A DNA stretch of 64,000 nucleotides, taken from positions 1-64,000 of the IMG/VR virus record IMGVR_UViG_3300030004_000001; one strand, written 5' to 3'. A program made the position numbers and the translations under genes. The DNA comes from a virus. Under the pieces are notes generated by a model. That model was not told the origin of the DNA. It worked only from the letters and a program-made list of their open reading frames with translations, and did no database searches. This document shows positions 12,813 to 32,507 of the stretch, one piece after another (the stretch's first letter is position 1; every line of letters starts with the position of its first letter).

Positions 12813-12815
12813 GAT

Positions 12816-13959: not shown

Positions 13960-14962
13960 ATCAATTTTAAAAAATTAACTCTCATCCTTTTAGCAACCAT
14001 ATAAGATGAAAGCACTTGTGATTTCGATATTTGAGATTATGACATCCTCATATACTGGTTCCAAGTTGCCCGGCTTCCAGTAATATCCCCCATCACTCCA
14101 ATTTAGCGCGCTAATAAAAACTATCAGCCCTTGCTTGGCTCCCATTTATTTATAGTAGGGAATCACTTTTAAAATACTAGGACTCATTTTGAGGACTAAC
14201 TTCAGTCAACTCAGCCAAGTCTGATGGCCTATCCCAGCTTAACGTCGGAGCCGATCCCGTTTATTCTTGGCAATTAAAATACGGTTTCTGGATAACCGAA
14301 AACCCAAAGTCCTCATAAGAGGCTATCTGATAAATCCCCAATCTTATCTTTGATTCGATTGGTTCCCATTACTCCATCTACAGATTGTGACTCTGTTTGA
14401 TGTTTCTTGGCAATTAGATATGTCTGCGAGACATTATCTAATCGAGCGCTGAATAAGACCGCAAGGTTGCACCTTGGTATTAGACGGTTTATTCAAATTA
14501 CGCTGTTATGTATTAACGGGAATTCTAATTACCCGTAGCGTAGAGGTTTGCCTTTGATGCCCTCACCGCGCCAACCGCCTAACCGGTTTTAACACTTCGG
14601 CTAATAGCGCGTCAATTAAATCAATTGACCCTTGCAGCCGCTCCCTCTTATTTGTAAGTGGGGAATCACTTTTATTGAGTTGGAGTATTTGCTTTTGCTC
14701 CAACCTATCTTCGGGTGATCGTTGCAACGATCAAGCAGTTACCCTATCGGTTTTCTATTATGACCGAAAACATACCCAATCAATTCTTATCACCGTTCTG
14801 ATTGGGTAAGAACAGGTGAATGCAGGAGACTTCTACATGCTGCCTACGTCAAAGGCAATAAGCCAATGATATCAACAGTTTCCGCTGCAAACGGCGAATG
14901 ATTATAGAACATGTCTTTGCAGGACAAGTCTTTTATCATTCCTTAAACATGTAGAAGTCTCC
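13960..14962 (-). ncRNA. Candidate large ornate ncRNA (~1 kb, GOLLD/ROOL-like context)
   Basis: No ORF and no tRNA in 1 kb, yet packed with helices. The RNA would begin at the promoter at 14959: its first 15 nt GGAGACTTCTACATG pair perfectly with CATGTAGAAGTCTCC ~115 nt later. More stems: TACCCAATCA/TGATTGGGTA, GATCGT-TGCA-ACGATC, GTTGGAG/CTCCAAC, GTCAATT/AATTGAC, CAAGGT-GCA-ACCTTG, ACGGG/CCCGT, ATTAGATA/TATCTAAT. Two ~75-nt modules repeat (14105-14175 and 14595-14680), and AATTGCCAAGAA occurs twice. Size, tRNA-cluster position and complexity match the known giant phage RNAs; I cannot match a covariance model by eye. Confidence 0.6.
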
Positions 14963-14977
14963 ATATATCTTATAACA
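14959..14977 (-). promoter_or_regulatory. Extended -10 promoter block (copy 1)
   Basis: Minus strand TGTTATAAGATATATGGAG, nearly the same as copies at 18647 and 36186. No good -35. GGAG is the likely 5' end of the ~1 kb RNA. Confidence 0.6.
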
Positions 14978-14981
14978 GAAT

Positions 14982-15389
14982 TTACTCAGTTTTTGCAGAA
15001 TCCTTGAGGAAATACTTTTCGGATCGCCTCAAAAACCTTTTAAAGTGCTTCTGAACGGATTCGGGAATCTTATAAGCTCCTTCATTCATTCTGTCAATGG
15101 CCCTAGACTCAGCTTCCTTCTTTGTATATCGATCACGCTTATTGCAGAGAGAGAAGCCAACAACTACCTGACCATTAACCTTATCAGAAATAAGAACTCC
15201 AATAGGATTGCGATTGTAAAGACAATTCAGAATATCTTTGAGATCAGCCTGAATCTCATTAATTTGTGCAGCATTATCAACATTAAGTACTGGCAGATCA
15301 TCGATCAATGCCATAATATCGACGACCTTTCTTTCAATCACTTCAGGATTGAAGTTCTTCTTGTTATGACGGACGTATTCCTTGAGCAT
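14982..15389 (-). CDS. Hypothetical helical protein (135 aa)
   Basis: The longer frame runs into tRNA-Arg, so the start is the ATG at 15389 (MLKEYVRHNKKN) with SD AGGAG 7 bases upstream. Mostly helical and charged; a segment NPIGVLISDKVNGQVVVGFSL forms the only beta part. C-terminus very basic (KRFLRRSEKYFLK). Codon use is richer in C/G than flanking genes. No family recognised; it stands alone between tRNA-Arg and the large RNA. Confidence 0.65.
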   Translation of the reverse strand: MLKEYVRHNKKNFNPEVIERKVVDIMALIDDLPVLNVDNAAQINEIQADLKDILNCLYNRNPIGVLISDKVNGQVVVGFSLCNKRDRYTKKEAESRAIDRMNEGAYKIPESVQKHFKRFLRRSEKYFLKDSAKTE

Positions 15390-15930: not shown

Positions 15931-15949
15931 ATTATCTCCAAAATTAAAT

Positions 15950-16023: not shown

Positions 16024-16026
16024 AAT

Positions 16027-16101: not shown

Positions 16102-16112
16102 ATTTTATGAAA

Positions 16113-16202: not shown

Positions 16203-16203
16203 G

Positions 16204-16575: not shown

Positions 16576-16580
16576 AGTTA

Positions 16581-17015: not shown

Positions 17016-17529
17016 TGTAATCTCCTTTCTGTTTTTCCAATCTATAAAAAACTTCTTCGAGTAAAATAGGTTTAAAATCAGTCCATTCTACACAAACATT
17101 TAAATATCTATTATCCATGATTTTATTACTATGCAAGTGACCATGAATATTTCCACCACACCATCTAGCTAAACTATCAGGATGAATGGGGATATGGGAT
17201 AATAAATATTTATCAAGTTTATGTGATCCACGAATATCTTTAAAATATTTAGCATATTCTTTTAAATCAAAGATATCATGATTACCACGAATTAAAACTT
17301 TTCTACCATTTAATTTTTCAAAAATAACTAGATCTCTTTTATGAAAAACAACATCACCTAAATGATAGATTTTATCTTCAGGTTTCACTATATCATTCCA
17401 ATTTTGAACTAAAGCTTCATCCATATCTTTTACATTATTCCAGGGGCGAACTTTAATTCCATCTTCTTTTAAAAAATTACAAATATTCTCTTGACCAAAA
17501 TGAGTATCGCTTATTAAATAGACTTTCAT
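17002..17529 (-). CDS. Calcineurin-like metallophosphoesterase (175 aa)
   Basis: All metal-binding blocks are present in order: SDTHFG (~7-12), HLGDVV (~56-61), GNHD (~82-85), LSHIPIH (~109-115) and GHLH (~130-133). This small single-domain form occurs in many phages and bacteria and acts on phosphoesters such as nucleotides or RNA ends; the substrate is unknown. In a tRNA cluster an RNA-repair role is conceivable but not shown. ATGA overlap with the HNH gene upstream. Confidence 0.85.
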   Translation of the reverse strand: MKVYLISDTHFGQENICNFLKEDGIKVRPWNNVKDMDEALVQNWNDIVKPEDKIYHLGDVVFHKRDLVIFEKLNGRKVLIRGNHDIFDLKEYAKYFKDIRGSHKLDKYLLSHIPIHPDSLARWCGGNIHGHLHSNKIMDNRYLNVCVEWTDFKPILLEEVFYRLEKQKGDYNARS

Positions 17530-18059
17530 AAATACCTATTTTTCTGTTTAGCCCAATATCCTCGTGGTGGTTTTTCTATTCCATATTTTTTACACCACTT
17601 ACCAATCATCCTACCACTTACATTATAAAATTTACCTATTTCTTCAGAAGGAATTTTCCAAATGATTTTTTCTAAATCTTCTTTAGATGCAATGTCTTTT
17701 TCTTGATCTATTCTATAACATTCCACAGAACAATATTGCTTTTCAATAGAATCAGGTTGGAATTCTTTTTTACAATATCTACAAATTTTTAATTCTAAAT
17801 AAACTGGATGATGAAGTTTACAATGTTCAGATGATGTTAATATTTCTAAATTTTCTGGATCATTATTTAATCTATTTTCGTCTATATGATGTACATGTTC
17901 AAAGTCTTCTAAATATCTATTTAATTTATTTTCCATAACTAATCTATGAAAATAAACAGATTTTGAATTTTTCCATGCATTTGGATGTGTTGGATAATAT
18001 ACCGTTATGTAACCTAAAGGATGAAGTGTTTGTGTAAATGATTTTAAATCATGTAACAT
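17526..18059 (-). CDS. HNH homing endonuclease with zinc and HTH parts (177 aa)
   Basis: HNH core EHVHHIDENRLNNDPENLEI (~54-73) followed by SSEHCKLHH. A four-cysteine cluster (ICRYC at ~92-96, YCSVEC at ~109-114) and a C-terminal helix-turn-helix (EEIGKFYNVSGRMIGKWCKK) would bind the DNA target. Full-length and apparently intact. Lies directly downstream of tRNA-Thr, a usual landing place for free-standing homing enzymes. Confidence 0.85.
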   Translation of the reverse strand: MLHDLKSFTQTLHPLGYITVYYPTHPNAWKNSKSVYFHRLVMENKLNRYLEDFEHVHHIDENRLNNDPENLEILTSSEHCKLHHPVYLELKICRYCKKEFQPDSIEKQYCSVECYRIDQEKDIASKEDLEKIIWKIPSEEIGKFYNVSGRMIGKWCKKYGIEKPPRGYWAKQKNRYL

Positions 18060-18075
18060 ATTTTCCTTTATAAAT

Positions 18076-18163
18076 TGGAGCCAAGAACAGGATTCGAACC
18101 TGCGATGGATTATTAGTCGGCAGCTTACAAGGCTGTTCCCTTCGACCGCTTGGGCATCTTGGC
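18076..18163 (-). tRNA. tRNA with UGU anticodon (Thr) and class II body
   Basis: Acceptor GCCAAGA/TCTTGGC, D-arm CCC-AAGCGGTCGAA-GGG like Tyr/Ser/Leu tRNAs, anticodon stem CAGC/GCTG with loop CTTGTAA (UGU), ~17-nt variable arm with CGA/TCG stem, T-arm CAGGTTCGAATCCTG, discriminator T, encoded CCA. Thr tRNAs are normally class I, so identity is uncertain. Confidence 0.8.
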
Positions 18164-18640: not shown

Positions 18641-18646
18641 TAATCT

Positions 18647-18665
18647 CTCCATATATATTATAACA
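18647..18665 (-). promoter_or_regulatory. Extended -10 promoter block (copy 2)
   Basis: Minus strand TGTTATAATATATATGGAG, preceded by a T-run; identical to the copy at 36186. Divergent from the sigma-gene promoter 27 nt away. Confidence 0.65.
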
Positions 18666-18691
18666 AAAAAATGGTGTTTTTTGCGAACATG

Positions 18692-18700
18692 TGTTATCAT
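18692..18700 (+). promoter_or_regulatory. Extended -10 promoter of the sigma-like gene
   Basis: TGT-TATCAT ends 7 bases before the ATG at 18708; no SD fits, so the transcript may be leaderless or nearly so. Confidence 0.45.
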
Positions 18701-18707
18701 AGAACTT

Positions 18708-19379
18708 ATGTCGAACGAACTGATTCTACAATACCAGAAAGATCCAACGAATAAAGAAATCGAACAGAAATTACTCGATATGCATGGATCTTATATTAAA
18801 GCCAACATTAATAAATGGGCCGGGATAGTCCCTGATATAATCATTCATTCATATGGTAAGAAATATGCGTTAGATGCTTTCAAGACTTATAATCCAATTA
18901 AAGGATCCATTAACACCCATCTATATAACAATATCTCCCAACTCTCCAGACTAATCTATCAACACCAAAATGCAATTCGCTTACCAGAGCAACAGATACA
19001 GTTAATCGGAAAAGTTAATGCATCTAGAGATATTCTAACTGATGAATTGGGCCGTGAGCCAACCACAGAAGAAATAGCTGATAATTTATCTTTACCAAAA
19101 GCACATATAGCTAAAGTAATTAGAAATCAAAGAGCAGATTTTCTAAATGATTCTGATACAGATATGCAACATGCTTATGGTGATCATGATAATGAGATAG
19201 GAAATAAGATATTTCAATTTAGACAGACTCTGAATGATACAAGAAAAGATCAATTTGATAGTTTTACAGGATATAACAACGTAACTCCATTAAGTCCTCA
19301 ACAATTTGGTTTAAAATTTAAACTTAAACCTTACGAAGTATCAAGACTTAAAACATTATTTGCTAAAGGGTTAAAATAA
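18708..19379 (+). CDS. Sigma70-family-like transcription factor (223 aa)
   Basis: Region 2-like core ALDAFKTYNPIKGSINTHLY (~45-64), then RLIYQHQNAIRLPEQ and a region 3 typical of sigma factors (ELGREPTTEEIADNLSLPKA, ~116-135). The C-terminus (PQQFGLKFKLKPYEVSRL, ~198-215) reads as a weakened region 4 helix-turn-helix. Phage sigma-like proteins of this type redirect RNA polymerase to phage promoters. ATG 18708 preferred over an upstream TTG that would overlap the -10. TAATG overlap with the next gene. Natural partner: the fused RNAP at 23579. Confidence 0.75.
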   Translation: MSNELILQYQKDPTNKEIEQKLLDMHGSYIKANINKWAGIVPDIIIHSYGKKYALDAFKTYNPIKGSINTHLYNNISQLSRLIYQHQNAIRLPEQQIQLIGKVNASRDILTDELGREPTTEEIADNLSLPKAHIAKVIRNQRADFLNDSDTDMQHAYGDHDNEIGNKIFQFRQTLNDTRKDQFDSFTGYNNVTPLSPQQFGLKFKLKPYEVSRLKTLFAKGLK

Positions 19380-19759
19380 TGGCAACTCAAATTACTCGTA
19401 CCCAGATATTAACTGATAGAGTTATTACTGTTACTATTAGCTTAACAGCTAAAGATGCTACAGATGATGCGTTGGTTAAAAAGTTTGGTGATATTCAAAT
19501 TATGCCTAGTGGATATTTTAATGATCCAGCAGATTCTACCTATCCTCAGTTTATGGTAAACGCGGGAACAGAACCTATCGATTTTTTTACAGCAGGATCT
19601 ATCGTTGCTACATTCGCTAATGATACATTAGCTCTTGCAGATCTTCAGAGACGTGCTTTATTATGGGGTAACGCTATCCAGTTAACTATACAGAATGCCA
19701 TGATAGCTTTACGTGCTTTAGTTGATTCTACTACCTCTACTAGTGTGGTGACAATATGA
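19379..19759 (+). CDS. Probable virion protein (126 aa)
   Basis: Thr/Ala-rich mixed alpha/beta protein without recognised motif. Coupled to the sigma-like gene (TAATG) and to the next gene (ATGA). Its place at the head of the baseplate run and its neutral, non-enzymatic composition suggest a tail or baseplate component. Confidence 0.55.
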   Translation: MATQITRTQILTDRVITVTISLTAKDATDDALVKKFGDIQIMPSGYFNDPADSTYPQFMVNAGTEPIDFFTAGSIVATFANDTLALADLQRRALLWGNAIQLTIQNAMIALRALVDSTTSTSVVTI

Positions 19760-20097
19760 GTTTGGTTAAATTAGCTTGGGATTCTAAAATGGATGAATTT
19801 GAAAATATTTTTAAATCAAAAACTCTAAAACAAATGCAACCATATAAATATTTTGAAGATAAACATAAACAAAAAGCTAAAGAATGGATTAAATACTATC
19901 AGTTAGAACCTAATGATCCATTAACACATACCGTAGGAAAAGAACAAAGAAAATGGACTAATGCAGTCTATGATAGATATAATAAATATAAATCTCATAT
20001 TAGAAATAGAAATATGAAACGTGGATTAGCTGGACTTGCTGCCGTTACTGTTTTGGGCGGAATTGTAAAAAACAGTTTAAATAAAGATAAAAAATAA
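19756..20097 (+). CDS. SLVKLA-motif protein with C-terminal membrane helix (113 aa)
   Basis: Starts MSLVKLAWD, part of the shared motif set. A Lys/Tyr-rich helical middle (residues ~15-90) is followed by one hydrophobic segment GLAGLAAVTVLGGIV and a Lys-rich end, i.e. a tail-anchored layout. ATGA overlap with the gene before. Could be an injected or membrane-contact virion protein; not recognised. Confidence 0.6.
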   Translation: MSLVKLAWDSKMDEFENIFKSKTLKQMQPYKYFEDKHKQKAKEWIKYYQLEPNDPLTHTVGKEQRKWTNAVYDRYNKYKSHIRNRNMKRGLAGLAAVTVLGGIVKNSLNKDKK

Positions 20098-20101
20098 CAA
20101 T

Positions 20102-20521
20102 ATGGCCTATTTAAATTATTTAGCTCAGATTAAAACATTCCTAACTAACTGGTCATCTTGTATGGCTGGTAATGGAAGTACTAATACTTTTGATTATAAA
20201 ATTAGTACGGCAAAAGAATTAAATAATTTGAAGAATGCAGTTACTGTAAATGATATGGTTCAGATGGGTAATGCCTATTATGATCAGGTTGGAATAGGTA
20301 GAGCAATGACTGAATTATATAAAAAACCTAAAGATTATTTTGCTGATTTTGTAGCATTTAATACTACTCAATTAGCTGATTTAACTAATTTAGGTAACGA
20401 AGTAACAAATTCATATACTAATATTTCAGATACTAGTTTAAGTAATAAGTCAATTAAATCTATTTCAGCTAAATTACAATTAAAACTTTCCTTAATAAGT
20501 TCACCATATGACAACAATTAA
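20102..20521 (+). CDS. Probable tail/baseplate protein (139 aa)
   Basis: Helical, Asn/Thr/Ser-rich, no motif recognised. Overlaps the gp25-like gene by 14 nt. Position between the membrane protein and baseplate wedge genes suggests a structural role. Confidence 0.5.
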   Translation: MAYLNYLAQIKTFLTNWSSCMAGNGSTNTFDYKISTAKELNNLKNAVTVNDMVQMGNAYYDQVGIGRAMTELYKKPKDYFADFVAFNTTQLADLTNLGNEVTNSYTNISDTSLSNKSIKSISAKLQLKLSLISSPYDNN

Positions 20522-20933
20522 TTTAGATATTACAAATAGAGATTTATACGGAAATGTGACTTTTTTATTAAAGTCTGCTAGAGTTTATGGTATCGAAAAT
20601 GTAATTCAGAAAGTAACTACTTGTTTGTTATCATCCAAGAAAACTACTTATTTTGGTAATATATATGGCAGCGATGCATTACAGGCTGGTAAATATAATT
20701 TTAATGCAGATGGAGTTACAGATTTTAAATTACAAATTACAGATGATTTAGTAAATATTAAAAGTTCTATTCAAACTGATGAAACTACATATAACATTCC
20801 CGTAGCAGATAGATTAAAAGATATAGCTATTCAAGACGTAGTATTTGATAATACAACTTTAACAGTAAGTTTATCATTGTTAATTTCTACTAATTCTGCT
20901 TCCACTATTATTCAATTGCCGGTGAAATCGTGA
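20508..20933 (+). CDS. gp25/GPW-like baseplate wedge protein (141 aa)
   Basis: Layout fits the gp25-like family: an early YGIENVIQKVTTCLLSSKK stretch (~24-42), then FGNIYGSDAL, and a C-terminal beta part with PVADRLKDIAI. In contractile-tail phages gp25 forms part of the inner baseplate wedge. The next gene is J-like, the usual neighbour. Overlaps it by 4 nt (GTGA). Confidence 0.6.
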   Translation: MTTINLDITNRDLYGNVTFLLKSARVYGIENVIQKVTTCLLSSKKTTYFGNIYGSDALQAGKYNFNADGVTDFKLQITDDLVNIKSSIQTDETTYNIPVADRLKDIAIQDVVFDNTTLTVSLSLLISTNSASTIIQLPVKS

Positions 20934-22615
20934 ATTCAACAGATCTGATTAAATTTTCAACTGATGTATTACAAGCAGATTCTAATTATGCTAATGTAGA
21001 TTTATCTACATCAGGTGCATTTTACAATTTAACCATTCTACCATTTTCGGTTTTAACAAAGCCATTAAGAGATTTGATTAATTCAAATATGAACGCATTA
21101 GCATTAGGAACTATGACTAGTGCTCAATTAGATAGTTGGGCTACTAATTTATTTCTTACACGTAGAACTAATAATTTAATGACCGTAGCTATTACAATTT
21201 ATTTAACAAATAGTACAGAAACGATAGAACCTTTAATGGTCTATACTACTGATACTTTTACTACAAATCAGAATAAGATTTTTTATCCAATTCAAGATTA
21301 TATTTTTATATTTAGTTCATTACCGGTAGATTCAACAGGTAATTATAGATATGCTACCATTATTGCATCTTCAACTCAGGATTATACAGTTACAGCAGCT
21401 AATACAATTAAATCAACTTCTTTAACTCATCCATCACTTTCTTATGTTACAAATGCGGCAGCCTCTTCAACTCCAATTGAGGCTCAAACAGATACAGACT
21501 TTATAACAAGTATTCAGTCTGCAATATCCGCACGAAATAATACTACCGCAAATGCAATTTACACTAATTTAGAAGCTGCATATACTTCAATAACAGATAT
21601 TTTAGCTATTGGATATAATGATCCTGAAATGCAGAGAGATATCGCTGTTGCAGCGCGTGATTGGTCGGGTCACTTTGGTGGAATGACAGATATTTACGTT
21701 CGCACTCCACTGACTGCTGTGACGGCTACGGTTACGGGCACTAGAAATTCTACCAACAATGGCTACACTTTTATTCTTCGTAAATACGCAGGTTATGATT
21801 GGGATTCTATTGATGACTCATCACCCACCCCTCTCTCATTAACCCCCTGGATTGCTGTAACTTCTACTAATCCATTACCTTCAATGCCTATAGTATTATT
21901 TGACTGGGCAGATACAACAATAACTAACACAACTATAACTACAGCGACCAATGGATTACCAAATGTATTAGTTGAAGTAATGCCAGATCCAGAATTAAAT
22001 GCATATGGTAAAAATTATCGTTATTCAATATATGAAAATCTTAGAATAACGGTTTATACAAACACAGCAGTAAATTCTTCTGAAACAATTGTATTAGCCT
22101 ATTCTACTTTATCAAATATTGAAGATATGCAAACATATATGAACTCTTCAGTTGCTAGAGTTTTAACTTCTAATAATTTAGTAAAATCTTTCCTTCCAGT
22201 TGAGATAAAGGATTTGACTATTGTTTATGATTCTAGTTATACTGTAGATACGACAACGTGGGCAACTACTCTTGCTGATTTAATTAATAGCTGGTCATCA
22301 ACTCAACCAATTAGATTATCTACATTATTAACCGATTTCGTAGCTCCAGTTCGTTTGGATGAAGTGTGGAGTGATACAACTTCTTCATTACCATATACTT
22401 TTGATAGTAATGGCAATATTACTGGAACTAATGTTTCAACATCTTTTCCTTCTTACATAACTATGTCATTAAATAATATAGATGGTTCTTTTCAATATTA
22501 TATTTCTACTAGACAGATTTATCCAATGGTCAAAACTGGATTATCTTCAACTTATAGAACTTGTCGTTATTTTGTAGATTCTTCAAATATTCATTTTGTA
22601 GCGGGGACATGGTAA
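20930..22615 (+). CDS. Baseplate J-like protein (561 aa)
   Basis: GTG start overlapping the preceding stop. Contains the J-family pattern: an N-terminal helical part, a beta-rich middle and the block EAQTDTDFITSIQSAISARN followed by helix and AIGYNDPEMQRDI. J-like/gp6-like proteins form the baseplate wedge ring in contractile tails. A patch at ~21640-21860 uses more GC-ending codons than the rest. Confidence 0.65.
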   Translation: MNSTDLIKFSTDVLQADSNYANVDLSTSGAFYNLTILPFSVLTKPLRDLINSNMNALALGTMTSAQLDSWATNLFLTRRTNNLMTVAITIYLTNSTETIEPLMVYTTDTFTTNQNKIFYPIQDYIFIFSSLPVDSTGNYRYATIIASSTQDYTVTAANTIKSTSLTHPSLSYVTNAAASSTPIEAQTDTDFITSIQSAISARNNTTANAIYTNLEAAYTSITDILAIGYNDPEMQRDIAVAARDWSGHFGGMTDIYVRTPLTAVTATVTGTRNSTNNGYTFILRKYAGYDWDSIDDSSPTPLSLTPWIAVTSTNPLPSMPIVLFDWADTTITNTTITTATNGLPNVLVEVMPDPELNAYGKNYRYSIYENLRITVYTNTAVNSSETIVLAYSTLSNIEDMQTYMNSSVARVLTSNNLVKSFLPVEIKDLTIVYDSSYTVDTTTWATTLADLINSWSSTQPIRLSTLLTDFVAPVRLDEVWSDTTSSLPYTFDSNGNITGTNVSTSFPSYITMSLNNIDGSFQYYISTRQIYPMVKTGLSSTYRTCRYFVDSSNIHFVAGTW

Positions 22616-22616
22616 T

Positions 22617-23264
22617 ATGAAAGCTTCTGAATTTTTAATGGCAAAAGCATTAGAACATGATGATTTTCAATTAACTAAAATTGCTCAGGATTTATATGGT
22701 ACTGAGGAAGATATTGATTATATCGATAAAGAAGCTGGAATTGCATCAGGTTTATTAGCTGCTGGTTCGCAATTACTTAAAAGTAACGTAATTAGAAATG
22801 CTGCTATTGGTGCAGGGGTAGGTAGTTTAACTGGCGCTGCTTCTGCACAGTCAGGTAATAGATTGGCCGGAGCATTTAAAGGTGGATTAATTGGTGCTGT
22901 TACTGGTGGTATTGGAAGTGCTAGTACTAATATTTTAAAGACTATGAAAACTCCAGGAGTTACGTTCAATAGGGCTTTAGCTCAAGAAGGTAATAATATT
23001 ACCGCAGTAGGAACTAAGGCTAGTAGAGCATTCGATATTGGTCGTTCAAATAGAACTTTCTTAAATAGACCTACTCCAATGGGAACTTCAATTCCAGAAT
23101 CTGCTCCAAAAGTTATATTACCAACTCCAACTAAAGATGAGGCAATAAAGGCTGGATTTGGTAGTCCTATCGAACCTCCATTACCCGCTGCTGGAGCAAC
23201 TACTTTACAACAGCCAGCTACTAAAAATTCTATCTTTAAACCAAAACCATTACTGAGAAGTTAA
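22617..23264 (+). CDS. Glycine-zipper membrane-active virion protein (215 aa)
   Basis: After a charged N-terminus (MKASEFLMAKALEHDD) comes a Gly/Ala-rich zone at ~40-105 with GxxxG spacing (AAIGAGVGSLTGAAS, FKGGLIGAVTGGIGS), typical of glycine-zipper pore or ejection proteins. The C-terminal third is Pro-rich and disordered (PILPTPT-like). Likely packed in the virion and inserted in the host membrane during entry (inference from composition and place). Confidence 0.55.
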   Translation: MKASEFLMAKALEHDDFQLTKIAQDLYGTEEDIDYIDKEAGIASGLLAAGSQLLKSNVIRNAAIGAGVGSLTGAASAQSGNRLAGAFKGGLIGAVTGGIGSASTNILKTMKTPGVTFNRALAQEGNNITAVGTKASRAFDIGRSNRTFLNRPTPMGTSIPESAPKVILPTPTKDEAIKAGFGSPIEPPLPAAGATTLQQPATKNSIFKPKPLLRS

Positions 23265-23266
23265 AT

Positions 23267-23566
23267 ATGTCATTAGTTAAGTTAGCAGCAATGCCGCTTT
23301 TAGTAATAAATAATTCGGATCCTAATGCTGGATCTTCTAAAACGTTTAATGGCAAAAATGTTGCTGCTGCTGCGGTTGGTGGAACAACAGGTTTTGCATT
23401 AAGCGATGCCATTGAACATACTAAAGGTTTTGATGAAACTAAATTATTACATAGATATGGTAAAAGAATGGGTTCTATTGTTGGTGGTTTTGCTGGTGCT
23501 GCTGGAACTTATACTCTTTTACATAAAAAGCAGAAAGAACAAGAACCTAAATTCTATATGCTTTAA
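23267..23566 (+). CDS. SLVKLAA-motif glycine-rich membrane protein (99 aa)
   Basis: Starts MSLVKLAAMPLL. Two Gly/Ala-rich hydrophobic stretches (VAAAAVGGTTGFALS at ~32-46 and SIVGGFAGAAGTYTLL at ~70-85) suggest membrane insertion; C-terminus basic. It lies 12 bp upstream of the RNA polymerase gene, so the two are surely co-expressed. Unknown role, possibly virion-associated. Confidence 0.6.
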   Translation: MSLVKLAAMPLLVINNSDPNAGSSKTFNGKNVAAAAVGGTTGFALSDAIEHTKGFDETKLLHRYGKRMGSIVGGFAGAAGTYTLLHKKQKEQEPKFYML

Positions 23567-23578
23567 TTAAGGGTCGTG

Positions 23579-26500
23579 ATGAATCATCAGATAACTAAAG
23601 AAAATACTCAACCAATTATTGATGTTATTCATAATAACATTAAAGAGATTTTTCCTTTAACTGTAGGTAATAAAACTATAGAAGTAAAGAATATAGAGAC
23701 AGTTGGTTGGGATAAGGCTGATCCAACCAACTATTATGATATTGCTAATGCAAAAGCACACGATAAGACTTACGGGGTAAATCTAGTCGCAGATGTAGAG
23801 TTATCCCAAGATGGTAAAGTAATAGATAAAAAGAAAATGAAATTAGCTACAGCACCGGTAATGGCTGGTGATGGAACTTTCATTGTTGGTGGATCACAGT
23901 ATCAAGTTGATCATCAGTTAAGATTGCGGCCCGGTATTTATTCTCGTATTAAACAGAATGGCGAAATTGAAGCACATGTAAATCCAAATGGTTTTAAAAA
24001 TTTACGTTTAGCCGTAGACCCCGCTACAAAGAAATTAACTGTAAATGTAAATCAGGCAAATATTAATGCTATTCCAGTATTAAGAATTCTTGGTATTTCT
24101 GATACTGAAATTAAAAAATCATTTGGTGATGATGTATATGATGCTAATATTAAAATTCTTGGCAAGAAGGGTGATGAAGAAATTAAACGTTTCTTTAAAT
24201 CCGTTCATCCTTATGATGAATTACCGGAGACTAATAAGTTAATAGCAGAACATTTATCTCTCTCACTAAGAGAAGCTAAACTAGATCCTAAAGTAACTAA
24301 AATTACATTAGGTCAAGAATATGATCACGTTAATGGAAATGCTTTATTAAGAGGATTTCAGAAAGTAATTAATGTTTCTCGTGGAACTGAACAACCTGAT
24401 GATCGTGATGCATTAGCATTTAAAACTATTCATTCAGTTGAAGATTTTGTTAATGAACGATTAAAGAAAAATAAGAAATCAATTCAATTTGCTATTCAGA
24501 ATAGAATGCGTAAAAATGATAAACTTGATCAGATTATGAATTCTGGTCATATTAATCAGCATGTATTCTCATTTTTTAATTCTGCTGCACTTTCAGAAAT
24601 TCCTTCACAGATTAATCCATTATCAGTAATTAATAGTTCATTTAAAACTACTATTACTGGTGAAGGTGGTATTGAAAATGCAGAATCAATTATGCCAGAA
24701 TCTCAAGCCTTACATCCTAGTCATTTAGGATATCTTGATCCAATCAATACTCCTGAGTCAAAAAAGATTGGTGTTACTTTAAATTTAGCTATTGGAACTA
24801 CTAAAAAAGGAAATGAACTTCTCAGTAAATTTAGAAACATAAAAACTGGTAAAGAAGAAGATATTTCAACTATCGATGCTTATCATAAAGTTATTGCTTT
24901 ACCCGGTCAAGAATTAAAAGGTCAAGTAACTGCTATTAAACATGGCAAACAAGTAGAAGTTGATGCTAGTGAAGTTACTCATGAGCTTCCTAATGCCTAT
25001 TCGGCCTTTACTATGGCTTCTCAGGCATTACCTGCAATGAATCATAATCAGGGTAATAGAGCTGGAATGGCCTCTAGACATATTAATCAGGCTATCTCAC
25101 TTAAACATCGTGAAGCACCTTTAGTTCAAGTTCAATCACCACTTTCCAAAGACATGAGTACTGAAGAATTTTTTGGTAAAAAATTCCAAATTGCGCTTCA
25201 TGCTAGAAATGAAGATGGAATTATTCAAGATATTACTAAATCACATATTATCTTTAAAGGTGATAGTGGTAAGGTATATGAATATCCTATTTTTAATAAT
25301 TTTGATCTACAAAATAAATCTTATTTACATCATGAAATTGAAAATCTTAAAATAGGCGATAGATTTAAAAAGGGTGATCTTATTGCCGATTCTAATTTTA
25401 GTAAAGGTGGCGTATTGTCACTCGGAACTAATCTTCGAACTGCTTATATGCCATGGAAAGGTTTAAATTTTGAAGATGGCATTGTAGTATCCGAATCAGC
25501 AGCTAAAAAATTAACTTCAAATCATTTATTTCAAGATAATATCGATAAAGATAATGATTCGGTATTAGTTAATAAAAGAAAATTTGTAACCTTATATCCA
25601 TCTAAATATACAAAAGCTCAATTAGATAAAATTAGTGATAATGGAATAGTAAAGGAAGAAGTTACTTTACAACCAGGGGATCCTTATGCTTTAGTATTAC
25701 ATAAGGCTCAGGGGACTCAAGAAGATCTTATGTTAAATAGATTACATAAATCTCTTGTACAACCTTATAAAGATATGTCTAAAACTTGGGAACAGTTAAC
25801 TCCCGGAAAAATTACTAGATCAGTAGAAAATACCAGAAATGTAAAGATTCATGCTAAATATGAAGCACCTGCAATTATAGGTGATAAACTTGCATTAAGA
25901 CATGGTAATAAGGGAGTCATTACCTCAATAGTTGCAGATAAAGAAATGCCTACTACTAAAGAGGGTAGATCTACCGAGGTATTAATTAGTCCCTTAAGTA
26001 TTGTTACTCGTATGAGTCTTGGTCAAATGTTGGAAAATTCTGCAAGTAAAATTGCAGAAAAAACTGGTAAACCTTATATTATTGAAAATTTTTCAAAAGA
26101 TAATCAATTAGAAAAAATTAAAAATGATTTAAAGAAACATAATATATCGGATACGGAAGAATTATTTGATGAACATGGAAATTCTTTTGGACAAGTGTTA
26201 GTAGGAAGTCCATTAATTGAAAAATTATTTAAGACTGCAAAAGCTAACGTTTCCGCTAGAGACAGTGGTGCCTATGATATAGATAATAAGCCAATTAAGG
26301 GTGGTGAGGATGGTTCGAAGGCTATCGACCAATTGACTCTTTATGGCTTATTATCGCACGGTGCGCGAGGCATTATTAATGAGGTTAGCACGGTCAAGGG
26401 TGATGGAAACGCCCAGTTTTGGCAGAATCTCCAAAATGGCTTACCCATACCTAAACCTCAAGTTCCATTTGTATATAAGAAATTTGAAGCAATGCTTCAT

Positions 26501-29500
26501 GCTGCTGGTATTAATGTTAGACATGATGGTTCTAGAAAAATATTATTACCTCTAATTGATTCTCAAATAGATGAATTAGCTGGAGATAACGAAATTGAAT
26601 CTTTTGGTATGTTAGATCATAATTTTGAACCAATCAAAGATGGGTTGTTTGATCGTCATACAACTGGTGGTTCAAATGGTGATAAATGGGCAAAAATTAC
26701 ATTAGCTCATCCATTAGTTAATCCAATGTATGAAAATGCTGTCAAAACCATCTTAGGTCTTAAGGACTCTGAATTTAAAACAATTATAAAATTGGAAGGT
26801 GGTCATGATAAAATTAAAGGAATGTTGGCTAATCTCAATGTTCATGAGCAGATTGATAATCTTACGGCAGGTATCAAGACTGCGCCGAAAACTAAAAAAG
26901 ATAAGCTGGTTAAACAACTTAAAATTTTCAAGTCACTTGATTCACTCAAGCTCTCTCCCGTTAACGCTTATATTACTTCCGTGGTTCCGGTTGTCCCTCC
27001 TACTTTCAGACCTATCTTTGAAATTCCCGGTGGGCATGTACAAACACATAGTTTAAATAATTTATATAGAGATTTGGGTTTAATTAATAATACTATCAAA
27101 GAGCTTGGACGTACTCCTGAATTGACAGATGCACTTTATAATTCTCTGGGTGCAATTCAGGGTGTAAATAATCCAATTACTAAACAAAATGAAATTAAAG
27201 GTGTTAAGGGTGCCATTCAAATTATCACAGGATCTGGTTCACCTAAATATGGGTTCTTTCAAAATAAAACATTACGTAAACAACAGGATTTATCAGGAAG
27301 AGCAACTGCTGTATTAAATAATAATCTTAATATGGATCAAATTGCTATTCCTGAAAAAATTGCTAAAGTAATTTACAAGCCATTTGCTATTAAAGAATTA
27401 ATTAAAAATGGTTATAGTTATCAAGAATCTGTAGATCATATAGATCATTTAGATAATATTGGAAAAAAGGCTGTTCAAGCTGCGATGTCAGATCGTCCAG
27501 TGTTAATGAATCGCGCTCCATCATTACATAAATTTTCAATTATGGCATTTCAGCCAACATTAACTAAAAATCTTTCTATTGAAGTTCCAGGGCTTATCGT
27601 TAAACCTTTTTCATTAGATTTTGATGGAGATACATTAGTTCTGCATGTGCCAGCTACCGAAAAAGCACGTAAAGAATCTTTTGGATTAATGCCAAGTAAG
27701 AATTTATATAATCCTAGAATGCGTACTTTAAATTATGCTCCAGATCAGGGAGCTATTCTAGGATTGCATTTACTTTCTCAAACTGAAGAAGGTTTAGTTA
27801 AGATAAATGATTTATTTCCAAAAGATATTTTGCCTATTGGTTCAAAAATTACTAAAAAGATGGTGGATAAAATACTTGCAAATTTAGCAGAAAAGTATCC
27901 AGAAAAATATAATGAAATTACTACCAAATTAAAACAAATGGGCGATACTTATGCTACTAAAGCAGGATTTTCTTTATCCTTAGCAGATCTTCCTAATAAT
28001 TCTAAAGAAGTTAATAAAGAATATAAATCTGCTGTAGGTTTATTAAAATCAAAATCATTAAGCGATGAAATTAAACTAAACGCTTTACTTAAAGCTGATA
28101 AATTTATTAAAGATAATGCATTAAATGACAAAACTAATAATTTTGTGACTATTGTAGCTTCTGGTTCTAGAGGATCGTCTGAACAGATAAAACAGATGTT
28201 ATTTGCCCCTGGAGTTATGAGTGATCATAATGGAGATCCATTACTTCATCCAGTTTTAACTAATTATTCACAAGGTATGCCCTTTAACGATTATTGGACT
28301 ACTTTATATTCTGCACGTAAAGCTGCTTTAGATAAACAGTTAATGACTGCTAAACCTGGCGCTTTAAATAAAGAGGTAGTAAATACTACAATGAGTATTG
28401 TAATATCGGAAAATGATTGTGGAACTAAATTAGGTATTCCTATGAATACCGATGATAATAATCTTGTAGGAAGATATTTAACGAATGGCACATTAGTGAA
28501 TAAAAGTAATATAGAATCTATACGTGATAAACATAAAGAAGTAATAGTTAGATCACCTACCACCTGTAGGGCATCACATGGGATTTGTCAGAAATGCTTT
28601 GGTATTGATGAATATGGTAAACTTCCAGATATTGGTCATAATGTTGGAATTAAATCAGCTCAAGCAGCAACAGAACCTTTAACTCAGGCAGCTATGAAAA
28701 CTTTCCATATGGGTGGAACGGTTTCTGGTGGTGGTGGTGTATTTGGTGGTTTTGAACATGTCAATAATTTTCTCGTTTCTCCAGAAACTTTTAAAGATCG
28801 AGCTACGTTATCAAAATTAGATGGAAAGATTACAAGTATAACTCCAGGGTCTGCCGGTGGTTTCCATGTTAATGTAAATGAACAAGATCATTTTATAACT
28901 CCTGGCTCTGGTAGTCTTAAAGTTAAAGAAGGTGATAAAGTAAAGAAAGGCGATTTATTAAATAATGGTATTCCTCATCCTAAAGAAGCTATACATCTTT
29001 TAGGTGAATTAGGTGGGCTTCATAAAATTACAGAGACTCTTCATAATATTTATAAAAATTCTGGCATTTCTATTGATAGAAGAAATTTAGAGACAATTGT
29101 TAGAGGTATGACAGGATTTGGAATAGTAGAAGATGAAGGAACTCATAAACATTTCGTAAAGGGAGATGTAGTACCTTTAAGTCAAATTTATGAATTTAAT
29201 ACAACAACTAATAAATCCTATAAATTACCTTTAAATGATGCTTTTGGAAAAAGTTTAGATGAAAATATCGGATCTTTTAAAATTGGAAATATAGTTAATT
29301 CTAATATGATTAAATCTTTACAAAAAACACATAAAGAAATTACTGTAAAGGAAAATCCTGTAACTTATGAACGTACCTTACTGGGAGTACAGCAAGCACC
29401 ACTTAAGTCTCACGACTGGGCTAATCAGCTTGCTTTCCGATATCTCAAACGTGGTTTGCAGGAAGGATCAACTTATGGTTATTCTTCAGATGTTCATGGA

Positions 29501-29563
29501 TATTCTCCTATAGCTCCATTTGTTACTGGTCAAATGGAAGATGGACCAGAAGGAAGATATTAA
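23579..29563 (+). CDS. Single-chain fused RNA polymerase beta-beta' (1994 aa)
   Basis: One uninterrupted frame holds both large subunits of cellular-type RNAP. Beta part: GTFIVGGSQY (~98), GYLDPINTPESKKIG (~384-398), MPWKGLNFEDGIV (~624-636), GDKLALRHGNKG (~768-779), TRMSLGQMLE (~811) and a C-terminal anchor YGLLSHGARGIINEV (~922). Beta' part: KDGLFD (~1020), ITLAHPLVNPM (~1040), VPPTFRPI (~1139), LSGRAT (~1238), LNRAPSLHKF (~1308), catalytic DFDGD (1347-1351), zinc site ENDCGT + TTC-GIC-KC (~1611-1673), EPLTQAAMKTFHMGG (~1700, trigger-helix region). The N-terminal beta' zinc finger is missing. ATG 23579 chosen over GTG 23576 by SD AAGGG. Transcribes phage genes, perhaps from within the virion. 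Confidence 0.93.
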   Translation: MNHQITKENTQPIIDVIHNNIKEIFPLTVGNKTIEVKNIETVGWDKADPTNYYDIANAKAHDKTYGVNLVADVELSQDGKVIDKKKMKLATAPVMAGDGTFIVGGSQYQVDHQLRLRPGIYSRIKQNGEIEAHVNPNGFKNLRLAVDPATKKLTVNVNQANINAIPVLRILGISDTEIKKSFGDDVYDANIKILGKKGDEEIKRFFKSVHPYDELPETNKLIAEHLSLSLREAKLDPKVTKITLGQEYDHVNGNALLRGFQKVINVSRGTEQPDDRDALAFKTIHSVEDFVNERLKKNKKSIQFAIQNRMRKNDKLDQIMNSGHINQHVFSFFNSAALSEIPSQINPLSVINSSFKTTITGEGGIENAESIMPESQALHPSHLGYLDPINTPESKKIGVTLNLAIGTTKKGNELLSKFRNIKTGKEEDISTIDAYHKVIALPGQELKGQVTAIKHGKQVEVDASEVTHELPNAYSAFTMASQALPAMNHNQGNRAGMASRHINQAISLKHREAPLVQVQSPLSKDMSTEEFFGKKFQIALHARNEDGIIQDITKSHIIFKGDSGKVYEYPIFNNFDLQNKSYLHHEIENLKIGDRFKKGDLIADSNFSKGGVLSLGTNLRTAYMPWKGLNFEDGIVVSESAAKKLTSNHLFQDNIDKDNDSVLVNKRKFVTLYPSKYTKAQLDKISDNGIVKEEVTLQPGDPYALVLHKAQGTQEDLMLNRLHKSLVQPYKDMSKTWEQLTPGKITRSVENTRNVKIHAKYEAPAIIGDKLALRHGNKGVITSIVADKEMPTTKEGRSTEVLISPLSIVTRMSLGQMLENSASKIAEKTGKPYIIENFSKDNQLEKIKNDLKKHNISDTEELFDEHGNSFGQVLVGSPLIEKLFKTAKANVSARDSGAYDIDNKPIKGGEDGSKAIDQLTLYGLLSHGARGIINEVSTVKGDGNAQFWQNLQNGLPIPKPQVPFVYKKFEAMLHAAGINVRHDGSRKILLPLIDSQIDELAGDNEIESFGMLDHNFEPIKDGLFDRHTTGGSNGDKWAKITLAHPLVNPMYENAVKTILGLKDSEFKTIIKLEGGHDKIKGMLANLNVHEQIDNLTAGIKTAPKTKKDKLVKQLKIFKSLDSLKLSPVNAYITSVVPVVPPTFRPIFEIPGGHVQTHSLNNLYRDLGLINNTIKELGRTPELTDALYNSLGAIQGVNNPITKQNEIKGVKGAIQIITGSGSPKYGFFQNKTLRKQQDLSGRATAVLNNNLNMDQIAIPEKIAKVIYKPFAIKELIKNGYSYQESVDHIDHLDNIGKKAVQAAMSDRPVLMNRAPSLHKFSIMAFQPTLTKNLSIEVPGLIVKPFSLDFDGDTLVLHVPATEKARKESFGLMPSKNLYNPRMRTLNYAPDQGAILGLHLLSQTEEGLVKINDLFPKDILPIGSKITKKMVDKILANLAEKYPEKYNEITTKLKQMGDTYATKAGFSLSLADLPNNSKEVNKEYKSAVGLLKSKSLSDEIKLNALLKADKFIKDNALNDKTNNFVTIVASGSRGSSEQIKQMLFAPGVMSDHNGDPLLHPVLTNYSQGMPFNDYWTTLYSARKAALDKQLMTAKPGALNKEVVNTTMSIVISENDCGTKLGIPMNTDDNNLVGRYLTNGTLVNKSNIESIRDKHKEVIVRSPTTCRASHGICQKCFGIDEYGKLPDIGHNVGIKSAQAATEPLTQAAMKTFHMGGTVSGGGGVFGGFEHVNNFLVSPETFKDRATLSKLDGKITSITPGSAGGFHVNVNEQDHFITPGSGSLKVKEGDKVKKGDLLNNGIPHPKEAIHLLGELGGLHKITETLHNIYKNSGISIDRRNLETIVRGMTGFGIVEDEGTHKHFVKGDVVPLSQIYEFNTTTNKSYKLPLNDAFGKSLDENIGSFKIGNIVNSNMIKSLQKTHKEITVKENPVTYERTLLGVQQAPLKSHDWANQLAFRYLKRGLQEGSTYGYSSDVHGYSPIAPFVTGQMEDGPEGRY

Positions 29564-29566
29564 AAT

Positions 29567-29655
29567 TTGGAATTCGTCATATTTTATGCGATAATGACTA
29601 TACACGTAATTCTCAAATAGTTAAAGAAAAGCGTGTATAGTTCACACGCTTTTCT
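29567..29655 (+). promoter_or_regulatory. Promoter and two mutually exclusive leader hairpins
   Basis: TTGGAA (29567-29572), 17-nt spacer, TGC-GATAAT (29590-29595). The RNA starts near 29600. Hairpin 1: CTATACACG/CGTGTATAG (29598-29640). Hairpin 2: AGAAAAGCGTGT/ACACGCTTTTCT (29625-29655). They share 29632-29636, so only one can form. No U-run follows, so termination is not obvious. Confidence 0.6.
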
Positions 29656-29832
29656 ATTCACTAATCAAACATTCGATCTAAAATATAGACAACAATCTTA
29701 CAACTTAAATCTTCTTCAACGTCCAATATTTTATTCAACTCTAATTCTCTATATAATCCTAATATTAAATTCTTTAACATTTAATTCTCGTGTAGCCAAT
29801 TTCTCTAAGACATTAAATCGGAGTAGAAAGCA
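29656..29832 (+). other. G-poor, C-rich untranslated leader
   Basis: About 150 nt with only about 7 Gs and many C/T runs, hence unstructured. Resembles a Rho-loading or protein-binding leader. A GTG-started 69-codon frame covers it but has no SD and reads as a composition artefact. Confidence 0.4.
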
Positions 29833-31572
29833 ATGTCCTTAAACGAATTATTCGTCTTAAATTCATCCATTCGTTTATCGGCTGATATGAATAGTTGGGG
29901 CGATCAAGTTATAAGCCAACTTATTAAATCATATCCGTCGCTCTCAAGTTTGGTGGGAGAAGTTGTTTTCGCCAAGACCGATACCGTAAAAGGTAATGCA
30001 TTGGGATACATTACTTTAATCGGTAAAGTTCAGAGGATTCCATTTATTGTCGATGAATATGATCTAAATCCATTAGACATATATATAGACAATGGTAAAT
30101 ATCTACCTCTTTCAGAAAGAGCAGTTAATAGTTTAAATTCTAGAACTTGGCCCTTTCGTCTTATATCCCAAACAGAAAGAAATGGAATTCTTAAGACTGC
30201 TTCGTTATTCGAGAATAATGGCATTTTGAAGGCAGAGTTTGTAAAAAAGAATAAAGAAACTTTTGAAAAAATTGCTGCTGAGTTTCCAGAAATTTTAGAT
30301 AACTTTACTATCCGCAATACTCAGAAGGCCAATTCTGAATTTGCAGTACGTTGTTTTATTAAAGAAGCCGCAGATGCAAAACCAATTGTGGTCCGCGATC
30401 TTATTGCTGAAGATAAAGATTATAAAATTTCAGAATTTGCTGATAAATTCGGAAAAGATTTTCTTTCTGAATTAATGAGTAAGGGTGAAGCTATTGTTTC
30501 AAATATGCCTCCTAAAGTTAGATTAGCAATTGATAGTATGGAAATTAAGGGACTTTATAAAACTTCTGAAAATAGAGAAGGTTATCTTTGGCATAATGGA
30601 ACTCCAATCGTAGCCAAGAGATTTGATCATTATCGTATGTCTGATTTAAAACGATCATCTATAGCTCCCTCTATTATTATAACAGAATGTGGCAAGTATT
30701 TTCAAAATGGAACATTAACAACTAAAGATGCCGGCAACGTTCCTAAGCATAAAGATAAGGTAGCTCCACAAAATGGTGATTATGCAGTAATTACCATTGG
30801 AGATAGTTGCTTTGGTCCATTTTTTATTAATAGTATTACAAAAATGGGTGCTGATAAAATTTACAATATTACTACTGATGAATTAAAAGTAGTAAATCTT
30901 AAGACTAGTGAAGATATTAAAACTATAGTACAGTTAGATGAGAATAATTATTTATTCTCACAGAATGCTCAGATTTTTAAAATTCATGTATCTGATATTG
31001 AGAATCCAAAAGATTTTGTTAAATCTGCTGGTTTGAAAGTTTCAGTATCAAAGCAGTTAGATGGTAACTTCTTAATTAGTGATTCTGGAATTTCTGGAAT
31101 AGATTCTAATAAACTGAAAAATTTAAAGAAGGGTGATGCTACGGTAGTTTTAATGCATTGTGGCTTATCTGAGACAGATGCTAAATATGCCCTGATGCGG
31201 GCATTAACTAATAATACTTATTCTTTTGATGCACCAGAAAAACAGAAAGTTTCCTCAGATAAAGATGTAACCTTAGAAAAGAAGGCTGAGGAAATTGTAA
31301 GTTACTGTAATGAAAATGAAGTATTAAAAATGGCCGCTGTGAGTGGCGATAAATCTAACGTGGATTTAGCCTTGGGACTTAATTTAATTAATTATAGTAA
31401 TATTAAACGATTTAAATTAATAGTTCCAGAAATTTATACTATGTTAGATAAATTATGTAAATTACTAATTATTAAGCGCATTAATCGTAATTTATTTAAC
31501 TTAGATGATACTCAACTTTCTCAAGCCATTCGCGCTTTGGACGAGATTTCGTTTGCCCTTAATTCCTTGTGA
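29833..31572 (+). CDS. Large protein of unknown function downstream of RNAP (579 aa)
   Basis: SD GGAG ten bases before the ATG, after its own promoter and a 230-nt leader. Starts MSLNELFVLNSS. N-terminal ~110 residues are mixed (VGEVVFAKTDTVKGNALGYI, RIPFIVDEYDLNPLDIYI), the middle is Lys/Asp-rich alpha/beta, and the last ~80 residues are helical. No enzyme motif. Forms a pair with the next gene (GTGA overlap). Lying between the RNAP and RNR it could be an RNAP accessory or inner-virion protein. Confidence 0.6.
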   Translation: MSLNELFVLNSSIRLSADMNSWGDQVISQLIKSYPSLSSLVGEVVFAKTDTVKGNALGYITLIGKVQRIPFIVDEYDLNPLDIYIDNGKYLPLSERAVNSLNSRTWPFRLISQTERNGILKTASLFENNGILKAEFVKKNKETFEKIAAEFPEILDNFTIRNTQKANSEFAVRCFIKEAADAKPIVVRDLIAEDKDYKISEFADKFGKDFLSELMSKGEAIVSNMPPKVRLAIDSMEIKGLYKTSENREGYLWHNGTPIVAKRFDHYRMSDLKRSSIAPSIIITECGKYFQNGTLTTKDAGNVPKHKDKVAPQNGDYAVITIGDSCFGPFFINSITKMGADKIYNITTDELKVVNLKTSEDIKTIVQLDENNYLFSQNAQIFKIHVSDIENPKDFVKSAGLKVSVSKQLDGNFLISDSGISGIDSNKLKNLKKGDATVVLMHCGLSETDAKYALMRALTNNTYSFDAPEKQKVSSDKDVTLEKKAEEIVSYCNENEVLKMAAVSGDKSNVDLALGLNLINYSNIKRFKLIVPEIYTMLDKLCKLLIIKRINRNLFNLDDTQLSQAIRALDEISFALNSL

Positions 31573-32396
31573 TAAATTATCCTTTCCATAAACTGCTTTT
31601 CTATCTTCTGGTAATTGCAAAATTCCGTAGGGTAGAGTATGCCAGTTTATTGAATACATACTTACCATCTATTAAATTTGATTTCGAAGATCCTTTTGAA
31701 TATATTCAGAAAATAGTCAAGGAAATTCCCTTACCTGCTGGAGTATATTCAAACAAAGAAGATCCTTCTAGTTTAATTATTTACTTAAGTAGATTTAAAC
31801 TAAGAGAATTACATACAGTCTTCAATCAGGAACAATTCGAAGATATAATTTTCGATACAGATCTGAGACGTAAAATAGATGCAATGGCACTGTCTCCATC
31901 TTTTCGAAAAATTGATATTATAAGAGAATTCCCTTCTATCAATCATGAATATATTGAAATTTATTTAGATTGTTTTGCTAATTTCGACCAGATAGATAGT
32001 CGAAATATATATGTATCTAAATATATTGGTGATCCATCAGAAAGATCTTTATTAATTAAAGTATTGACTACCACATCACGAATTCACTTAAAAACCATTT
32101 TAGGTATTAGAACTAATTTAGATCCAAAGACAATTATTGAGAAATCATTAAGCGTTATGGATATGAAATCTGATTTAGCTTTAATTAATGAAGATGATGA
32201 CAAATTAGAAAGATGGACTAAATTAAGAATATCTATTGCAGAGAAATTAATTAAAATGGGCGCTGGTAGTAAGACAGACCTCGATAATCTCATGGAAGCT
32301 TTAAAGGCCGAACCTGATTTTAAAGATCCAGTAATCTATACTAAAGAAGATTTAGAAAATGAATTTAGTCAAGCTAAAGATGAGTTACCTTCATAG
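31569..32396 (+). CDS. Hypothetical protein (275 aa)
   Basis: GTG start overlapping the previous stop (GTGA), so translationally coupled. Helical and charged throughout; acidic C-terminus (KEDLENEFSQAKDELPS). No membrane segment or motif recognised. Presumably works with the 579-aa protein upstream. Confidence 0.6.
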   Translation: MINYPFHKLLFYLLVIAKFRRVEYASLLNTYLPSIKFDFEDPFEYIQKIVKEIPLPAGVYSNKEDPSSLIIYLSRFKLRELHTVFNQEQFEDIIFDTDLRRKIDAMALSPSFRKIDIIREFPSINHEYIEIYLDCFANFDQIDSRNIYVSKYIGDPSERSLLIKVLTTTSRIHLKTILGIRTNLDPKTIIEKSLSVMDMKSDLALINEDDDKLERWTKLRISIAEKLIKMGAGSKTDLDNLMEALKAEPDFKDPVIYTKEDLENEFSQAKDELPS

Positions 32397-32471: not shown

Positions 32472-32507
32472 AAATAACTATACTCAAAAATAAGTTGGAG
32501 GATGTTA

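Follow-up and report, generated by a model that had tools for sequence, protein, structure and literature searches.

A virus record from an uncultured phage codes for an RNA polymerase (RNAP) of bacterial type, whose beta and beta' subunits are fused in one chain and retain their catalytic motifs, together with a sigma-70-family factor whose gene lies in a baseplate gene cluster, a linkage that is conserved in related phages; the genome also carries a promoter-like motif. We consider it probable that the sigma factor and the single-chain RNAP are packaged in the virion, injected, and used to start early transcription from promoters of this motif. Within this proposal, packaging in this particular phage, injection, formation of a sigma-RNAP holoenzyme, promoter recognition, and timing are the parts that we infer.

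A plus-strand gene run encodes a sigma factor, baseplate proteins, and a fused RNAP

The window analyzed here comprises bases 1-64,000 of a 157,395-base IMG/VR virus record, which may be incomplete. In our list of open reading frames (ORFs), every ORF from 18681/18708 to 32396 is on the plus strand, as a first-pass annotation had described for the sigma-like, baseplate, glycine-rich, and RNAP genes. The order is a sigma-70-family factor, a baseplate wedge, two small Gly-zipper-like proteins, the fused RNAP, and a pair of 579- and 275-aa proteins, with smaller genes and one hairpin interspersed. Several of the products have relatives in the cultured Salmonella phage Arash (OQ632216):

18708..19379, plus strand: compact sigma-70-family factor of 223 aa, orthologue of the Arash virion protein gp10 (likely start ATG 18708, with the ORF open from 18681; Sigma70_r3, PDB profiles, fold)
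19379..19759, plus strand: 126-aa protein of the sigma-baseplate cluster, kept in L002 and L004 (blastp, HMM)
19756..20097, plus strand: 113-aa protein (ORF list; no relatives found)
20102..20521, plus strand: 139-aa protein, kept in L002 and L004 (blastp, HMM)
20508..20933, plus strand: 141-aa protein, relative of the Arash virion protein gp12 (iterated HMM family GP12, E 7e-9)
20930..22615, plus strand: baseplate wedge, 561 aa, orthologue of the Arash virion protein gp13 (phrog_6; HMM)
22617..23264, plus strand: 215-aa protein containing a weak Gly-zipper stretch (E 0.022, under cut-off; sequence)
23267..23566, plus strand: 99-aa "VKLA" protein immediately 5' of the RNAP gene (sequence begins MSLVKLAAMP)
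23576..29563, plus strand: single-chain beta-beta' RNAP, 1995 aa (Pfam Rpb2/Rpb1; orthologue of Arash gp206 plus gp216)
about 29625..29654, plus strand: strong hairpin, probable terminator, 3' of the RNAP gene (-17.9 kcal/mol, z -6.55)
29833..31572, plus strand: 579-aa protein of an RNAP-adjacent family (beside RNAP in 16 loci; leave-out HMM to Arash gp218)
31569..32396, plus strand: 275-aa partner of the 579-aa gene, kept in L002-L004 (blastp, HMM)

The RNAP gene starts at either GTG 23576 or ATG 23579; the ATG is 12 bp past the gene for the 99-aa protein, the gap given in the first-pass annotation, and this protein has a relative in L002 only. Both of the proteins that had been called glycine-rich membrane proteins are in the run, but for this description Pfam returned only sub-threshold Gly-zipper matches (E 0.01-0.02). 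Since the hairpin separates the sigma-to-RNAP genes from the 579/275-aa pair, the run is probably read as two transcripts. The 141-aa gene lies directly 5' of the wedge gene.

The RNAP is an intact beta-beta' fusion

Pfam profiles matched the RNAP in the order Rpb2_3, Rpb2_6, and then Rpb1_1 to Rpb1_5, and the scores (E 3.5e-39 for Rpb2_6 and 3.9e-22 for Rpb1_2) show that it can be aligned to cellular beta and beta' profiles; its top PDB matches were bacterial beta' chains. Alignment to E. coli RpoB plus RpoC placed the junction, where RpoB ends and RpoC begins, at about residues 984-987. The same alignment revealed the beta catalytic lysines (GDKLALRHGNKG), the beta' DFDGD motif, the bridge helix, and the trigger loop, as well as the second zinc site, with site 1 lost, and clamp helices ~10 residues shorter than those of E. 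coli. With every catalytic motif present, the enzyme is intact and belongs to the bacterial-type multi-subunit class. It is the one RNAP match in the record.

About 25 viral contigs carry a related RNAP, and same-order fusions in a single ORF recur in L002, L003, L004, L021, L022, L025-L027, L030, L031, and L036, so the beta-beta' fusion is no assembly accident. In a tree of 832 columns, built on a small reference set without archaeal, mReC, or phiKZ-type sequences, all of these RNAPs clustered together, separate from bacteria and from the phages Carin-5 and GN1 (support 99-100), with the RNAP studied here grouping with those of Arash and D69. In Arash, D69, L037, L039, L040, and L029, beta' is split just after the DFDGD domain, at about residue 1400, and the rooting of the tree implies that the fusion preceded the splits. 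L029 had been a candidate for separate beta and beta' genes, which was ruled out by its split falling inside beta'. Records labeled as Staphylococcus, Enterococcus, or Listeria phages with rpoB/rpoC-like sequence, which were unverified, were excluded because they probably represent bacterial contamination.

HMM searches for alpha and omega gave no match in the 157,395-base record or in ten relatives (11 records), while the control genomes did match, bearing out at HMM sensitivity the absence of both subunits noted in the first-pass annotation.

The sigma factor is kept with baseplate genes

The 223-aa protein matched Sigma70_r3 above the Pfam cut-off (E 1.1e-7), and a profile built from five orthologues matched PDB sigma chains over regions 2-3 (E 4.6e-12). 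Its AlphaFold model (pLDDT 75) matched SigB, SigS, and SigA across residues 1-223 with Z scores of about 10-11, the large whole-chain rmsd resulting from a different placement of the domains. On the basis of the profile matches in regions 2-3 and the full-length match of the predicted model, the protein is a member of the sigma-70 family with regions 2, 3, and 4. A sigma HMM trained on this clade alone reached both Arash gp10 (4.6e-24) and D69_0011 (1.1e-23), and a search in the opposite direction succeeded as well. Among 20 RNAP-bearing records searched, 13 have a sigma orthologue, including nine of the ten that are at least 150 kb long; in this search it was not found in some of the shorter records or in G017, the most divergent long record.

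The 561-aa family matched phrog_6 (baseplate wedge) in three of five members (E 4.7e-9), and a leave-out HMM of the wedge reached Arash gp13 at 1.3e-30. The gene order gp8-type, gp6-type, sigma, gp12-type, and wedge recurs in Arash, D69, L044-L046, and L049, with a few extra genes inserted and with the gp6-type gene first in Arash and D69. In L047 and L051 the sigma gene lies upstream of gp12-type and wedge genes, and in L048 and L050 it lies near gp8/gp6-type genes. In each locus examined, sigma thus sits in the baseplate cluster or close to it, and the placement of sigma among baseplate genes that had been noted in this phage extends to its relatives. The sigma-wedge cluster of this phage, like those of L002 and L004, is also joined to the RNAP gene and the 579/275-aa pair.

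RNAP and sigma orthologues are abundant in particles of a relative

In the published Arash virion mass spectrometry data (PMC10585845), gp206 was the most-detected particle protein, with 128 unique peptides and 3516 spectra, and unique peptides were also listed for gp216 (40), the sigma factor gp10 (24), the wedge gp13 (29), gp218 (36), and gp217 (38). gp206 and gp216 are orthologous to about residues 22-1399 and 1425-1995, respectively, of the RNAP studied here, and the Arash RNAP is about 31% identical to it. gp217 is a SNF2-type helicase by domain, and its homologue in this phage lies at 91529-93028 of the record. These orthologues supported the virion packaging of RNAP and sigma that the first-pass annotation had guessed from gene position. 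Its further premise that late-only expression would refute packaging was off: late synthesis is what one would expect of a protein that is assembled into new particles.

The Arash virion list also includes replication enzymes, and its authors raise the possibility of carry-over. RNAP and sigma could accordingly be intracellular proteins whose presence in particles is carry-over, with host RNAP reading the motif early and the phage enzyme transcribing later genes. In favor of this reading, Arash particles also contain replication proteins, at a low level; moreover, in YerA41, whose particles have RNAP subunits and a sigma factor associated with them, the RNAP genes are expressed early despite these particle-associated proteins, and sigma is expressed late (PMC7354516). 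However, when signals were computed per length, the Arash RNAP, sigma, and the other virion proteins named above were comparable to the major capsid protein or the portal, while the primase, ligase, and other enzymes were about 5 to 50 times lower. Arash also encodes a second sigma factor, gp196, which is missing from the virion list. The capsid-level signal of RNAP and sigma together with the missing gp196 argues for specific packaging in Arash, and we regard carry-over as unlikely.

We give hardly any weight to the idea that neither protein is packaged in this phage and that their place among structural genes reflects late timing only: divergent phages keep the sigma-baseplate order, and few Arash virion proteins were detected as well as gp10 and gp206/gp216. 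Packaging in this phage is well supported by homology, having been observed in its relative Arash only. Since relatives of RNAP and sigma occur at high levels in the particles of a cultured phage, this phage probably injects a transcription machine of its own to turn on its earliest genes.

In the scenario that we favor, sigma and RNAP would be made together with the structural proteins, and both would be built into the particle, the sigma gene being inside the baseplate gene cluster. Both would then enter the cell with the DNA, where sigma would direct the alpha- and omega-less RNAP to promoters of the form GCAAAA-16 bp-TGTTATAAT (GGTATAAG in relatives) before non-structural genes. Transcription by a sigma-directed RNAP at these promoters would make early transcription independent of the host RNAP core.

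A 579-aa protein is the constant neighbor of RNAP

Members of the 579-aa family lie downstream of RNAP in 16 loci. A leave-out HMM linked this family to Arash gp218 at 1.4e-5 with the larger training set only; HMMs trained on this clade alone did not recover gp218, and direct comparison of the profiles was weak (23% probability). From its position and the leave-out HMM, the 579-aa protein is probably a relative of the virion protein gp218. A fold search with its low-confidence model (pLDDT 62) gave no PDB match below E 0.35. The 275-aa protein could not be tied to Arash gp219 (hhalign E 0.26), and a gp219 HMM did not reach it.

These data bear on the idea that RNAP is packaged but that sigma serves the host core, with the phage enzyme using another specificity factor, possibly the 579-aa protein. 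The constant immediate neighbor of RNAP is indeed the 579-aa family and not sigma, PhiKZ-type virion RNAPs function without sigma, and the clamp helices, which are a sigma-binding site, are shortened here. Nevertheless, sigma accompanies RNAP across the clade, both are in the Arash virion, and the 579-aa model, itself of low confidence, shows no RNAP-factor fold, making this division of roles very unlikely in our view.

A promoter-like motif recurs in related genomes

Using word counts and position-weight models, we found a promoter-like motif, new here, that has sigma-like spacing. In this genome and G001 it consists of TGCAAAA, 16 bp, and TATAAT within TGTTATAATATA; Arash, D69, G011, and G012 have GGTATAAG or GTTATAAG instead, and G008 has GGCATAAG. 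The motif is present in at least seven genomes. Sites scoring above 13 bits numbered 18 in this genome, 12 in G001, 37 in Arash, 26 in D69, 25 in G011, 23 in G012, and 12 in G008, compared with 0-9 in Markov genomes; because these genomes also served to train the models, the counts describe the motif rather than independently test it. The recurrence of GGTATAAG in several genomes is the stronger point. Sites on the strand opposite the RNAP gene made up 18/18, 11/12, 36/37, 26/26, 23/25, 20/23, and 11/12 of these totals, respectively, a bias that partly follows gene orientation (binomial p 3.9e-6 to 0.14). For 72 of 74 sites in four genomes, the next gene within 300 bp was not a detected structural gene, although detection of structural genes is incomplete outside Arash. 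In G003 the motif seeds failed, and G010 had weak, mixed-strand sites; sigma is present in both. The following candidates lie in the window:

14953..14998, minus strand: promoter-like motif with TATAAG, 39.0 bits
18632..18659, plus strand: host-type promoter candidate 5' of sigma (TTGATA-16-TATATT), 10/12 matches, may be chance
18641..18686, minus strand: promoter-like motif within the sigma leader (CGCAAAA...TGTTATAATATATATGG), 46.9 bits
36180..36225, minus strand: promoter-like motif, 51.3 bits
50468..50513, minus strand: promoter-like motif within an ORF call, 32.6 bits

The site in the sigma leader reads away from sigma, toward a minus-strand tRNA region.

The motif also bears on who reads it. 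Its spacing is sigma-70-like, and in this genome its -10 element is the consensus TATAAT with a TG extension, as the carry-over explanation would have it; because TATAAT is the host consensus, host RNAP could read the motif here. In Arash and D69, however, the -10 element ends in G where the host sigma-70 consensus has T, and canonical host-type promoters were near background in the leaders of both phages. Host-type promoters were clearly enriched in G011 and suggestively so on the RNAP strand of this genome; the region as a whole had no excess of host-type matches. In G011, a second class, TTGACA-N17-TATATT, precedes its RNAP gene and several genes on the same strand. We provisionally assign the motif class to the packaged sigma-RNAP pair, with host RNAP as the leading alternative, particularly in this genome. 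The broader proposal, that a large and mostly uncultured clade injects a two-protein, alpha- and omega-free holoenzyme that fires dedicated GCAAAA-N16-TGTTATAAT/GGTATAAG early promoters, is one for which we see the chances as evenly balanced.

Relationship to known phage RNAPs

Of the virion RNAPs studied in depth, those of the phiKZ type have no sigma, and the N4 enzyme bears no relation to bacterial RNAP. The crAss-like and N4 RNAPs are large single chains in the virion, and the N4 enzyme is T7-type. The crAss enzyme cannot be aligned to COG0085/COG0086 (PMC7481178), whereas the RNAP described here, in contrast with the crAss/YonO-type and N4 enzymes, is plainly bacterial beta/beta'. If our proposal is correct, alpha and omega would be dispensable once beta and beta' are fused, and the pair would provide a simple purified setup for studying transcription initiation in minimal form. 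It would also predict that early transcription does not depend on host RNAP in phages that infect several different hosts, and the motif is a directly testable promoter candidate.

Arash and the Vibrio phages D69, D181, and D148 share with this phage an orthologous RNAP, a sigma in the baseplate cluster, the wedge, portal, capsid, and terminase, and the motif family. In the Arash/D69 type, however, beta' is split and the sigma-baseplate and RNAP clusters are far apart in the genome, whereas here the enzyme is one chain. The available part of the Arash paper (PMC10585845) does not describe the fusion, the sigma-RNAP pair, or the promoters. The Yersinia phages YerA41 and GN1, a relative of YerA41, and the Cobetia phage Carin-5 likewise encode phage beta and beta', with a sigma gene adjoining them in Carin-5, but their beta and beta' genes are separate and GN1 and Carin-5 are on a distant branch. 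RNAP and sigma in particles had thus already been listed for YerA41 and for Arash; what is new is the single-chain form, the conserved linkage, and the promoter class. Beyond the papers cited, our literature search, whose terms were partly narrow and which left subscription journals mostly uncovered, yielded no earlier fused beta-beta' virion RNAP with a sigma factor.

The mReC RNAPs of Caudovirales (PMC7481178) are also bacterial-alignable beta/beta' enzymes of tailed phages, and the RNAP studied here branches apart from cellular RNAP as they do (small reference set, no mReC sequences). They were reported as beta and beta' subunits alongside PF07068 capsids, with sigma and virion unmentioned, while the capsid of this phage had no PF07068 match and a weak PF05065 match only. 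With phiKZ-type virion RNAP (PMC7598289), the enzyme shares the double-psi-barrel and the lack of alpha and omega, as well as a virion-carried state that is predicted here. The phiKZ-type enzymes differ in that they consist of four to five polypeptides, come in two sets, and lack a sigma, compared with one set, one chain, and a sigma here. The beta' of phiKZ-type enzymes is split after the catalytic domain (PMC7598289), similar to the split in the Arash-type relatives.

Additional virion proteins of Arash and their homologues

The baseplate clusters of Salmonella phage Arash and Vibrio phage D69 encode a separate protein of 221-226 aa whose homology is to zinc site 2 of beta' and its surroundings in the RNAP of our phage (residues ~1563-1698, E 5.5e-8), and the published Arash virion list includes this protein, gp7, with 7 unique peptides (PMC10585845). 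The SNF2-type helicase gp217 was strongly detected in the same virions (38 unique peptides, PMC10585845); this helicase, which has a homologue in our phage, may be an additional packaged factor for transcription or DNA. The genes concerned are as follows (L-numbers denote the sequence stretches analysed).

L013:7425-8105, zinc-site-2-like protein, Arash gp7, baseplate cluster
L016:7783-8448, zinc-site-2-like protein, D69_0008, baseplate cluster
L015:11261-12679, SNF2-type helicase, Arash gp217
Record bases 91529-93028, minus strand, gp217 homologue in this phage

Promoter-like motifs

Two promoter-like motifs, located near 18641-18686 and 14953-14998, share the minus strand with the tRNA genes.

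11326-18163, minus strand, 13 tRNA genes

In the related virus genome G011 (L067-L075), a second, highly uniform promoter-like class, TTGACA-N17-TATATT, precedes the RNAP gene and several genes on the same strand.

Inteins and suspect records

Unverified "Staphylococcus/Enterococcus phage" records (GenBank OR844998, L054, and similar) contain bacterial-like rpoB/rpoC and were set aside; since the single such record tested clusters with E. coli in the RNAP tree, they probably represent contamination.

Inteins, together with LAGLIDADG or Hom_end domains, occur in the RNAP genes of several relatives. Vibrio phage D181 has an RNAP fragmented around a homing-endonuclease ORF.

L041:9679-19257, L033:9839-17809 and L007:3001-10932, intein-containing RNAP genes

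In the window, two neighbouring ORFs together encode a ribonucleotide reductase, and PF14890, a domain for intein splicing, matches the second of them (E 1.5e-12); the reductase is either interrupted by an intein or a split-intein enzyme.

32502-33548, plus strand, ribonucleotide reductase, first ORF
33563-35008, plus strand, ribonucleotide reductase, second ORF
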